DNA of 55,063 nt from an uncultured Porphyromonadaceae bacterium (GTDB lineage: Bacteria > Bacteroidota > Bacteroidia > Bacteroidales > Muribaculaceae): the NCBI GenBank assembly GCA_947175205.1, contig CAMWLS010000012.1, positions 1 to 55,063 of the forward strand. The letters run 5' to 3'. Each line of letters begins with the position of its first letter. Positions within the stretch are counted from its first letter, which is position 1. A program made the translations under genes and the position numbers. The notes under the pieces were generated by a model. That model saw only the letters and a list, made by a program, of their open reading frames with translations, searched no databases and was not told the DNA's origin. Positions 108 to 36,000 of the stretch are shown here, piece by piece.

Positions 108-156
108 CTTATAAGTCATATAAGAAGCATATGACGGCATATGACGGCATATGATG
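108..156. repeat. intergenic short tandem repeat, copy 1
   Basis: One ACTTATAAGTCATATAAG stretch is followed by three 10-base units of the form GCATATGACG, the last one degenerate. It lies between the possible gene end at 86 and the terminator of the convergent flavodoxin gene. It belongs to the same family as the repeats at 4609, 9151, 15261 and 35971. Confidence 0.85.
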
Positions 157-177
157 CCTCACCCATCTCCCCCCGCT

Positions 178-215
178 AAAAAACTGCGCTGCGGCATAAC
201 ACCACAGCGCAGTTT
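178..215 (-). terminator. intrinsic terminator of the flavodoxin gene
   Basis: An 11-bp perfect stem (AAACTGCGCTG paired with CAGCGCAGTTT, 13-base loop) ends in a T run on the minus strand, 20 bases after the flavodoxin stop codon. Confidence 0.85.
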
Positions 216-234
216 CATTTTATATTTTTTCCTC

Positions 235-732
235 TTAAAGAGTCTTCACCCACTCTTTTATGCGGCCGTCAGTCAGTTCCGGCTTATTCACCTCATCCAG
301 AACCAGACCGCACATGAGGTCATCAGAAATACGCGCCTCTGAGTCCTCAAACACATAACCCTCAGCGTTAAACTGGCCCTTCATCTCAGCACCGGTCTGT
401 GCAAACTTCTTATAAAGCACGCCCACGGCACCGCAGAAAGTGTCACTCATATTCTCATCTCCACAGCCAAAAACAGCCACCTTCTTGCCCTTCAGGACCA
501 GAGCCTCCATACCGTCCAGGGCATCATACCAGTCATCCTGAACCTCACCTGAGCCCCACGTGGACGTTCCTGCAAGGATATAATCATACTCACCAAACTT
601 AACCGGTGACGTCTCAGCTATATTGTGTACATCTTCAGCTGCCACATTCAAAACTTCTGCCAATTTCTTGGCTACCCCTTCTGTGCTGCCGGTGGTGGAA
701 CCATAAAAAATTCCGTATTTCTTTTCTGACAT
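235..732 (-). CDS. fldA: flavodoxin (long-chain type)
   Basis: Small cytoplasmic FMN electron carrier of 165 residues. The FMN phosphate-binding loop GSTTGST is at residues 11-17, and the first isoalloxazine loop contains Trp59 in GTSTWGSG. The GCGDENMSDTFCGAVG segment at about 89-105 is the second flavin loop. The length fits long-chain flavodoxins. Flavodoxins accept low-potential electrons, for example from pyruvate:ferredoxin oxidoreductase, and pass them to reductive enzymes; the actual partner is not visible here. The gene stands alone, with its own terminator at 178-215, and is divergent from the TPR gene. The identification is secure; the symbol rests on family resemblance. Confidence 0.93.
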   Translation of the reverse strand: MSEKKYGIFYGSTTGSTEGVAKKLAEVLNVAAEDVHNIAETSPVKFGEYDYILAGTSTWGSGEVQDDWYDALDGMEALVLKGKKVAVFGCGDENMSDTFCGAVGVLYKKFAQTGAEMKGQFNAEGYVFEDSEARISDDLMCGLVLDEVNKPELTDGRIKEWVKTL

Positions 733-764
733 ATTACTATATTTTAAATTTATTCACTTTATGT

Positions 765-772
765 AAATATAA
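765..772 (-). promoter_or_regulatory. possible -7 box of fldA
   Basis: On the minus strand the sequence TATATTTA differs by one base from the Bacteroidetes -7 box TAnnTTTG. It lies 32 bases upstream of the start codon. No clear -33 TTTG was found. Confidence 0.4.
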
Positions 773-33485: not shown

Positions 33486-34621
33486 GACTGCATCTGAGTT
33501 ATGTGTGACAAGGCAGCCTCCACCTTATTCAGGTCAGCGTCAGTAAGGGAGGCGTTCAGGCTGAAACGCAAGCGTTCAGTACCAGGCGGCACTGTGGGGC
33601 GACGTATGGGAAGTACCATGATGCCGCTGCGACGCAAGGCGTCAGAGAGAGCCACGGCTTTCTCTGCGCTTCCGGCCATCAGGGGCTGTATGTGTCCTGC
33701 GTGAGAACTTGCCAGAATACGCTGCATGCGTTCTCCTATGTCACGCAGGGCTGCACGGGCCGTATCCATTTCCAGCATGCGGGTGAATGTGCGGCGGCTC
33801 CAGTGAAGAGTCACGTCAGGAAGTGCCGTGGAGAAAATAAAACTGCGGGCCGTGTTTATGAAATACTGCTTAAGCACCGGAGATACCACGGCAAAGGCAC
33901 CTACAGAAGCCAGTGCCTTTCCCAGCGTACCCACCGTAACATCCACGGCAGAGGGGTCAGCCAAAGCCTGGACCATACCCAGGCCTGCAGGCCCGAGAAC
34001 GCCCACGGCATGCGCCTCATCCACATAAAGCATCAGGCCAGGAAAATCTTTCTTTAAGCTCACCAGCGCCTCAAGGTCAGCGCAGTCACCGTCCATGCTG
34101 TAAACGCTTTCCACAATTACCAGAACACGGCTGAATCCAGCACCCTCAGACTCTATAAGACCGCGCAGGTGCTCCATGTCATTGTGTCTGAAGCGGCGGA
34201 AAGGAGCACGGCTGAGAGTTATTCCGTCTATGATGCTGGCATGTACCAGCCTGTCAGCCAGAATCAGGGTATTTTTATCAGCCAGAGCGCTCACCATGCC
34301 TATGTTGGCATGATAACCTGAATTGAAGACCAGGGCCTGACGTCCGTGGCCGTATGCCTGAGCCAGTGTATCTTCAAGGGCGGAAAAAGCCTGCTGGCGT
34401 TGCGCCAGCAGCCGCGAGGCGGATGAAGAGCCGCAGACAGCCTCTGCGGTGGTATATTCACGGAGGAATTCACGATAAGAATCTGTATCAGCGGCAATGG
34501 CCAGATAATCATTTCCCGTGAGGTCCACCATGGCGTCTGAGGCTACCTCAGGGAGCGCGCGCAGGTTTCCGGCCTCTGCCAGCTGCCTCAGGCGCATATC
34601 ATATGTGTCAAGTACTGTCAC
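33482..34621 (-). CDS. bioF: 8-amino-7-oxononanoate synthase
   Basis: 379 residues, PLP enzyme that condenses pimeloyl-ACP with alanine. The PLP Lys is K235 ([11 protein letters not shown]). Other marks are [23 protein letters not shown] and [10 protein letters not shown] (about 198-207), all typical of alpha-oxoamine synthases. The stop and start overlap neighbours by 4 bases. Confidence 0.95.
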
Positions 34622-35910
34622 AGCTCGGAGACAAGTTTTACAAGAGCCTTACACAGCTTGCGCAGCTGAGCGTCATTTATAACATAAGGAGGCATGATGT
34701 ACACGTTTCGCCCGAAGGGTCTGATCCACACACCCTCCTCCACGCAACGGCGCTGGAAAGCCCCCACATCCACCGGGTCCTTCATCTCCACCACGCCTAT
34801 GGCTCCGAGTGTGCGCACGTCAGCTACTGATGCGAGTGATGCGACCGGCGCCAGTTCCTCCGCAATTATACTGTTTATATGCCCTATCACGCGGGGCATG
34901 TCCTGTTCTGTAAGCAGCTTCAGGCTCTCCACCGCCACGGCACAGGCCAGAGGGTTAGCCATGAATGTGGGGCCGTGCATCATCACACCGGCCTCACCGC
35001 GGCTGATGGTATCAGCCACCTCAGCGGTGGTAAGAACGGCGGCAGAGGTCATATATCCTCCCGTGAGAGCCTTTCCTACCGTCATTATGTCCGGCACCAC
35101 ACCGGCGTGTTCAAGTGCAAAACAGCGTCCTGTACGCCAGAAGCCTGTGGCTATCTCATCAAAAATCAGATATATGCCATATGCGTCACAGAGCTTGCGC
35201 AACTCACGCAAATACTGAGGGTGATAAAAACGCATGCCGCCGGCACCCTGCACCACCGGTTCCAGTATGACCGCGGCAAGTGTGGACGCGTGTTCCTCTA
35301 TGGCCTGACGCATCTGGTCAAAATCAGCGGGGTCCCATGGGGCGTCAAAGGGCGTCCGGGGTTCACTGACAAAGAAACGCACAGGCAGCGCGGGGCCAAA
35401 AGCGCCATGCATGCCCGTAACCGGATCACAGACACTCATGGCGTTCCATGTGTCACCGTGATAACCGCGGCGTATGGTGAGGAAATCAGTTCGCTTGTGG
35501 TCTCCTGAACGCGAGATTGCTGCCTGAACGGCCATTTTCATGGCTACCTCAACGGCCACTGAACCGCTGTCTGCATAAAAGATATTATGCATCTGCGGAG
35601 GAGCCATGCTCAGGAGCAGTTTTCCAAGCTCAATGGCGGGCAGGTGCGTCATGCCACCGAACATCACATGGCTCATGTCCTGCATCTGGGCGACGGCTGC
35701 GCTGTTGAGACGGGGATTATTGTAACCGTGGATAACGCACCACCATGAGGACATGCCGTCAATAAGCACCGTGCCGTCAGCAAGTTCTATCTCAGCACCA
35801 TGGGCGCTCTTAACCAGATATACCGGCAGCGGGTCAATGGTGGATGTATACGGATGCCACAGGTGCTCACGGTCAAAGTCACACAGCGGCTTTATTTCCT
35901 GTTCTGTCAT
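34618..35910 (-). CDS. bioA: adenosylmethionine-8-amino-7-oxononanoate aminotransferase
   Basis: 430 residues, PLP enzyme that converts KAPA to DAPA with SAM as amino donor. The PLP Lys is K280 ([11 protein letters not shown]). Substrate-site features include LWHPYTS at about 17-23, [10 protein letters not shown] at about 54-63 and [12 protein letters not shown] at about 250-261, as in BioA. It is the first gene of the operon; its promoter lies directly at the start. Confidence 0.96.
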
Positions 35911-35915
35911 AGGTG

Positions 35916-35923
35916 CAAATTTA
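35916..35923 (-). promoter_or_regulatory. -7 box of the biotin operon, at the start codon
   Basis: TAAATTTG on the minus strand ends 5 bases before the ATG at 35910, so the mRNA would have a leader of 0-1 base. The -33 match is weak (TTTA at 21 bases). Confidence 0.6.
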
Positions 35924-35970
35924 CAAATTATATTTTAGACCGTGTAAAAAAAAGTTTCGTACCCGGAAGG

Positions 35971-36000
35971 ATATGACTTATATGACTTATATGACTTATA
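35971..36000. repeat. intergenic short tandem repeat, copy 5
   Basis: ATATGACTT is repeated at 9-base spacing three times, ending in ATAATAA. It lies between the bioA promoter and the gpmI terminator. Confidence 0.88.

Follow-up and report, generated by a model that had tools for sequence, protein, structure and literature searches.

The STRR repeats of cyanobacteria are short degenerate seven-base tandem words dispersed between genes, and REP/BIME elements with their RAYT transposases lie between genes, near gene ends, and have inverted arms, without a tandem 9-base unit. Here we describe a family of 9- to 10-base tandem repeats predicted from five arrays in a 55,063-nucleotide stretch of DNA (the window) of an uncultured Porphyromonadaceae bacterium (GenBank assembly GCA_947175205.1, contig CAMWLS010000012.1), which is the entire contig C12 of a 2.15 Mb draft genome in 68 contigs. 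The arrays share with STRR repeats the short, degenerate, intergenic tandem words and differ in unit length, host and sequence; with REP/BIME elements they share intergenic placement, gene-end location and inverted arms, the tandem 9-base unit being found only in the present arrays. The nearest published element that we found is BrickBuilt, a minisatellite within a miniature inverted-repeat transposable element (MITE) of Porphyromonas gingivalis with a 23-nucleotide unit, a leader, a tail and inverted-repeat ends (PMC4596501). Both are spacer-less tandem repeats with many copies in one species and BrickBuilt always lies between genes, but its longer unit comes with flanks, whereas the present unit is a degenerate 9-10 bases and shared flanks were not found among the 70 array flanks that we compared. 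Matches in this comparison reached only 12 bases, outside a tandem region at the end of contig C13 (L074) and one linked flank (L079), and no conserved leader or tail with terminal inverted repeats emerged; a MITE of the BrickBuilt type was accordingly rejected. Our search of the open-licence literature for strings or descriptions of the unit, YATAWGAMN, found none.

We consider it about an even call that the arrays belong to a dispersed, intergenic family of minisatellites that has been amplified in this species and grows through local duplication. The family consensus is YATAWGAMN, with a 10-base variant in some arrays; a profile learned from the bacterium’s own genome has eight positions, approximately Y-A-T-A-W-G-W-M, followed by one or two spacer bases, and frequent forms of the unit are TATAAGTC, TATATGAC, CATAAGAC, CATAAGAA and CATATGAC. 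As the original prediction had proposed, we searched the genome for the unit, and the family proved to be dispersed. Chains of the profile in 812,391 bases (38% of the genome) define 38 loci, assembled from 140 chains on both strands; the reversed sequence gives 5 chains with this profile, which was trained on forward sequence. The sample includes contigs picked for hits, which biases the density of loci; three contigs chosen by size alone (C1-C3, 240 kb) hold 3 loci (L046, L053 and L054). Two arrays found earlier (L074 6071 and L075 4303) were dropped by the profile search. Across the whole genome, a two-unit pattern gives 84 matches and its reversed control 0.

Of the 38 sampled loci, 35 are intergenic, and the remaining 3 lie within open reading frames (ORFs) of 111-134 amino acids without a Pfam match. 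Inspected by eye, the 34 non-redundant intergenic arrays of period 9/10 in the sample include 31 that carry the unit, which bears out the prediction of one family of related units and supports the view that they are more than random AT-rich slippage. A similar tandem unit is thus found at many unlinked intergenic loci, as expected of a dispersed minisatellite. Perfect repeat makes up exactly 55 bases at the start or finish of contigs C10, C16, C19 and C27, and C61 opens within repeat, from which we infer that perfect arrays of greater length interrupted the assembly at several contig ends. At the C13 end (L074:13950-15011) a stretch of ~240 bases is tandemly repeated in several copies, and every copy contains a separate 9-base array; the flanks of these copies are 86-97% alike in matched stretches and, by eye, the arrays diverge more. 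A distinct GC-rich 46-base tandem repeat in C16 (L079:218-343) is unrelated to the 9-base family.

The arrays bear internal marks of growth through the duplication of units or blocks. Higher-order repeats of 18, 27, 29 and 39 bases occur within them, and identical 9-mers pair within arrays 90 times, compared with 22.0 +- 4.9 after re-dealing the units, an excess that shows local duplication. Spacing, measured on 37 arrays having at least 4 units (259 units in total), is 9 bases in 198 of 222 inter-unit steps, 10 in 23, often run together, and 11 in 1. Fixed spacing with varying letters, which the original prediction took as a sign of selection, is also expected from duplication followed by substitution. 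The palindromic cores that had been proposed fared only partly: CATATG and TTATAA are present in some units, but self-complementarity equals that of shuffled units, and a quasi-palindromic unit was rejected as a general rule.

The arrays were predicted to adjoin gene ends or terminators, and they do so more than chance. Genes were called with a custom ORF picker (at least 90 amino acids, longest first) and terminators with a simple script, and three short ORFs covering arrays were removed before orientation and terminators were counted. A terminator points at the array within 60 bases at 11 of the 38 loci, compared with 2.2 +- 1.4 at random intergenic places, and an array sits just ahead of a terminator at 8 (2.7 +- 1.7 at random). 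When random places are confined to each array’s own region, 7 of the 24 arrays lie behind a terminator versus 3.3 +- 1.4. Of these 24 array regions, 11 contain a terminator outside the array; among 132 regions that lack an array but have a gene end, 43 contain one. Enrichment between convergent genes or after stops, the test suggested with the prediction, is likewise observed: among the 23 loci with both neighbours called, 12 are co-directional, 7 convergent and 4 divergent, while these classes make up 62%, 12% and 25% of intergenic bases, and in 9 of the 12 co-directional loci the array is closer to the stop.

A minisatellite of this kind would spread in the following way. Units or blocks duplicate within a locus, as the higher-order repeats and clustered identical units show, in arrays placed almost solely between genes; the arrays would persist in such DNA because it tolerates insertion, and would be neutral or selfish and of no use to the cell. 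New loci may be seeded at short chance sites that later expand, since no shared flanks were found and signs of multi-unit blocks copied between loci are weak. Strand-switching at quasi-palindromes may participate in growth, as suggested by the order of reverse and forward units described below. Among the roles first envisaged, namely a nucleoid-protein array, a 3’-end element and a selfish repeat, the neutral or selfish one fits most of the data. Such a family would offer a simple case for how short repeats reach dozens of chromosomal sites without an obvious transposase. Its arrays appear to break assembly of the host genome and could serve as strain-distinguishing markers.

Several observations weigh against simple growth of a neutral minisatellite. 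Unit identity is 0.69 within an array (0.75 between adjacent units) and 0.66 between arrays, a lower local homogeneity than expected if simple slippage had started from single seeds. Mismatches to the motif are distributed unevenly along the unit, at 2.7% and 3.1% for positions 1-2 and 22.8% for position 6, compared with 6.1-12.5% under simulated uniform decay at two rates bracketing the observed mean; this may reflect constraint, or merely few founder variants. Different loci have in common 4 three-unit blocks (0.2 and 1.2 in two nulls) and 16 two-unit blocks (11.6 and 9.3), a weak hint of copying between loci that the perfect contig-end arrays may explain in part. The arrays also have an order that plain slippage does not predict. 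With direction words that were selected after the arrays had been inspected, reverse units come first in 12 of 17 mixed-direction arrays, with 4 opposite and 1 tie (sign-flip p 0.0075), and in 7 of the 8 mixed arrays with at least 2 words each way; an earlier, narrower word set applied to 31 arrays had given 13 mixed arrays, 11 of them reverse first, 1 opposite and 1 tie. Together, the uneven conservation, the similar identity within and between arrays and the unit order keep a protein-bound or 3’-end element open.

A constrained binding array, which we regard as possible though doubtful, would draw directly on these observations. A putative DNA-binding protein, either one of the nucleoid or one of the ribbon-helix-helix type that binds tandem sites, would read each YATAWG unit, its dimers aligned at 9-10 bp steps along both arms. 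The nearly fixed YATA core, the uneven conservation and the near-equal likeness of units between and within arrays would suit such a protein, and the reverse-then-forward order, being identical on both strands, would suit a dimer or a two-sided assembly. Yet the arrays favor gene ends over promoters, perfect arrays and higher-order repeats resemble duplication, and the sampled relatives carry other unit families or hardly any. Helical phase is a poor argument as well, because each 9-base step falls ~1.5 bp short of the 10.5-bp turn; at this step seven units traverse one complete helical turn. The earlier idea of a spacing near one DNA turn, selected for phase, is therefore not supported by the predominance of 9-bp steps.

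We surveyed relatives for the unit and for other arrays. The two-unit pattern occurs in 16 of 49 genomes of the genus, the bacterium’s own included. The other 48 hold 46 matches in 15 genomes versus 8 control matches in 8 genomes, counted irrespective of their position relative to genes; the richest relative, G008, accounts for 13. A strict three-unit TATGAC pattern is absent from the 60 relatives scanned, and sampled relatives hold few YATAWGAMN units, or other 9-10 bp words. The closest near-full-length marker-protein match within the genus is 64% identical. Surveys with Tandem Repeats Finder (TRF) covered stretches of relatives, of which those of G008 and one of the 20 from G036 had been chosen by hits, and revealed other dominant 9-base words. 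The stretches of G579, G634, G767, G574 and G701 considered below had likewise all been chosen by hits. In 400 kb of G036 we found ten period-9 loci, including six of AATCCGTGW and one of the related AATCCGAGC, and also one TATAAGACA array. In G833 (280 kb), CTATTGGGC occurs at two places, with a different register at one of them, and GTCTGACGG and ATTGGACTA are also present; G008 (106 kb around its matches) has three arrays of the TTATAAGTC kind, and G031 (364 kb) a single unrelated array.

The gene end occupied by array 2 of the window, that of a DUF4301 gene, allows a direct comparison. DUF4301 is matched in 47 of the 49 genus genomes, and the loci of 29 relatives were fetched, one of which (L171) gave only 2 bases downstream. 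The YATAWGAMN family occurs in none of the 28 readable loci within the first 90 bases downstream, a span beyond which later arrays could be missed. Two of the 28 (L173 and L174, from G013 and G006 of the same genus) carry inverted arrays of AATCTGTG, another 9-10 bp family, at this same gene end.

A second dispersed 9-base family, AATCYGTGN, was observed when 393 genomes of the order were scanned: 12 of them have matches, 89 in all compared with 7 control matches in 2 genomes, and in some of the 12 the family is dispersed. The bacterium’s own genome has no match. It resembles the present family in its dispersed 9-10 base unit, mostly outside ORFs, with some inverted arms and sometimes at the same gene end, and differs in sequence, in an often fixed three-unit order and in its clear hairpins. 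Its clusters lie mostly outside called ORFs in 24 of 27 cases (L289-L308; G579, G634, G574, G701 and G767), and arms are inverted around a short loop at 3 of 3 places in G574 and 3 of 7 in G579. In the hairpins of these two genomes an arm has as many as three units, often arranged as CTGTG-CCGTG-CTGTG, while G634 and G701 carry a half-element that frequently ends in GGTGA.

A bolder reading, which we regard as possible though doubtful, is that gene ends in these bacteria are colonised by interchangeable 9-10 base array families, often with inverted arms, each species amplifying its own word (YATAWGAMN here, AATCCGTGW or TTATAAGAC elsewhere). The common factor would then be, instead of a sequence, a process or a protein of fast-changing specificity that makes 9-base arrays and spreads them where transcription ends. 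A 9-base step common to unrelated words, if real, would point to a single maker or user.

A role as a 3’-end element seems unlikely to us. Hairpins at transcript ends would terminate transcription, shield the message as REP hairpins do, or insulate behind a terminator, and the proximity to terminators, the share of arrays between convergent genes, the strong folds of arrays 2 and 3 of the window and the inverted arrays at the DUF4301 3’ end of two relatives are all consistent with this. Folding is less so across the family: over 31 arrays the RNA fold z averages -1.8 on one strand and -1.7 on the other, many individual values lying near 0, compared with a mean of -0.8 (sd 2.0) for 56 other intergenic pieces. 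An RNA hairpin was rejected as a general feature, being strong in few arrays only. Arms pair better than unit-order shuffles (p <=0.1) in just 9 of 37 arrays, compared with a chance expectation of ~4; the nine include the window’s arrays 2, 3 and 4. Moreover, arrays past a terminator may escape transcription, and 4 of the 23 arrays with both neighbours called lie between divergent genes. The family’s clearest inverted-arm element, L084:58-175 in contig C44, has arms that begin with GGGGGATGCTTCTTATGC and finish with GCATAAGAAGCATCCCCC.

Many insertion sequences generate 9-base target duplications. Repeated insertion and precise loss at a preferred target, leaving such a duplication each time, would account for the 9 bases, the few 10s and the different word per species, but we hold transposon footprints to be very improbable, as higher-order repeats and perfect arrays can be explained without a transposon. 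The search for insertion elements near the arrays was limited to the Y1 transposase. PF01797 (Y1_Tnp) is matched in 33 of the 49 genus genomes, with two weak matches in the bacterium’s own. Among the five relatives with at least 4 two-unit matches, G022, G024, G032 and G036 have a PF01797 match and G008 (90% complete) is without one; for a spread driven by RAYT, we see no clear link between Y1 transposase and arrays.

Coincidental likeness of ordinary slippage products in AT-rich spacers is just as improbable: the three-unit pattern beyond the bacterium’s own genome barely exceeds its control (1 match vs 1 in the order sample, from 1 of 392 other genomes, of the same family; 4 vs 0 in the phylum sample, from 2 of 394 other genomes), but the two-unit counts in the bacterium’s own genome refute chance there and those in the rest of the genus speak against it, leaving an explanation that may apply to single arrays in distant phyla. 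The window itself gives the same picture, in that it has 6 TRF rows of period 9/10 with a score of at least 40 (best 75), located at four of the five arrays, while 29 of 30 dinucleotide shuffles have none and one has a single row, of score 44. A match to random AT-rich slippage in a shuffled background had been named as an outcome that would undo the idea of selection; the shuffles do not reproduce the arrays.

TRF and inspection of the sequence confirm all five arrays of the window at the places where they had been predicted (Table 1). Array 1, classed by the terminator script as immediately downstream of a terminator, gives a TRF row at 127-154 (period 10, 2.8 copies, 100%). Array 2 starts 9 bases past the DUF4301 stop (gene 3063-4595, +) and is followed by rpsO (4857-5132, +); it has period-9 rows at 4608-4635 and 4612-4668 and a predicted hairpin with dG -21.4 and z -4.2. 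The window’s strongest inverted-arm array is array 3 (dG -28.9, z -5.9), whose arms out-pair unit-order shuffles; it lies 107 bases from the rplI stop on the downstream side (rplI 9350-9793, -), with TRF rows at 9168-9203 (period 9, 4.0 copies, 100%) and 9199-9218. The genes ruvC (14648-15238, +) and a GNAT-domain gene (15347-16414, -) converge, and array 4 occupies the gap between their stops. This array reaches the TRF score only through a 29-base period composed of ~10-base units (15289-15349), its short period-10 row (15315-15333) scoring 38. Array 5 gives a row at 35971-36000 (period 9, 3.3 copies, 100%) directly past the T-run of a terminator that follows a phosphoglycerate mutase gene (36079-37602, -). 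The lone unit had been placed at 54266, one base off its actual start, and the same word is also found within array 2, at 4659.

Table 1. Coordinates of the arrays, the lone unit and adjoining features in the window.
Feature	Position	Strand	Description
Array 1	106..155	.	CTTATAAGTCATATAAGAAG, then 10-base units GCATATGACG; adjoins flavodoxin-gene terminator, downstream side
Flavodoxin gene	235-732	-	Neighbour of array 1
Terminator-like hairpin, flavodoxin gene	181..213	-	AAACTGCGCTG...CAGCGCAGTTT, points toward array 1; read from sequence
Array 2	4605..4686	.	Reverse units linked by GTC, followed by forward units linked by GAC
Array 3	9149..9242	.	Reverse units, CATATAAGT core repeats, forward units
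Array 4	15254..15343	.	Degenerate 9/10-base units
Array 5	35970..36004	.	ATATGACTT x3.3, perfect
Intrinsic-terminator-like hairpin beside array 5	36003..36029	-	ATCCCGCC/GGCGGGAT, T-runs both sides; read from sequence
Lone unit, no array	54265..54276	+	CTTATATGACGC

No likely gene spans the arrays of the window, in line with the claim that none lies inside a gene, but two mechanical frames with TTG starts do overlap them: a 93-amino-acid frame (15257-15538) overlaps array 4, and one of 121 amino acids (4273-4638), largely within the DUF4301 gene, touches array 2. We take both as spurious. An Rfam search of the window at gathering scores returned two tRNAs only and no structured RNA at the arrays.

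Outside the genus, an exact 26-mer of the repeat occurs on 7 contigs, belonging to several phyla, in a collection of 84,980 species genomes that was scanned without a control pattern. Its carriers are Pseudoalteromonas, a Muribaculaceae metagenome-assembled genome (MAG), Geomobilimonas, Clostridioides difficile, Duncaniella, Marinobacterium and a Porphyromonadaceae MAG. In these seven genomes, selected because they bear the repeat, the three-unit pattern is matched 21 times in the Porphyromonadaceae MAG, 7 times in the Muribaculaceae MAG and 3 times in Geomobilimonas; the remaining four genomes have a single match apiece, and there are 0 control matches. The matches of the two MAGs are spread over several contigs, and these genomes may have repeat families of their own. 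We do not claim a cross-phylum element, given the low counts in the order and phylum samples and the possibility of independent arrays. A loose form of the pattern was also matched in 15 viral stretches, some of which resemble coding repeats by eye. Arrays of CATAAGACT recur within the viral contig pieces L221 and L216, and in viral contig L225 an array of TATAAGACC lies immediately past a terminator-like hairpin.

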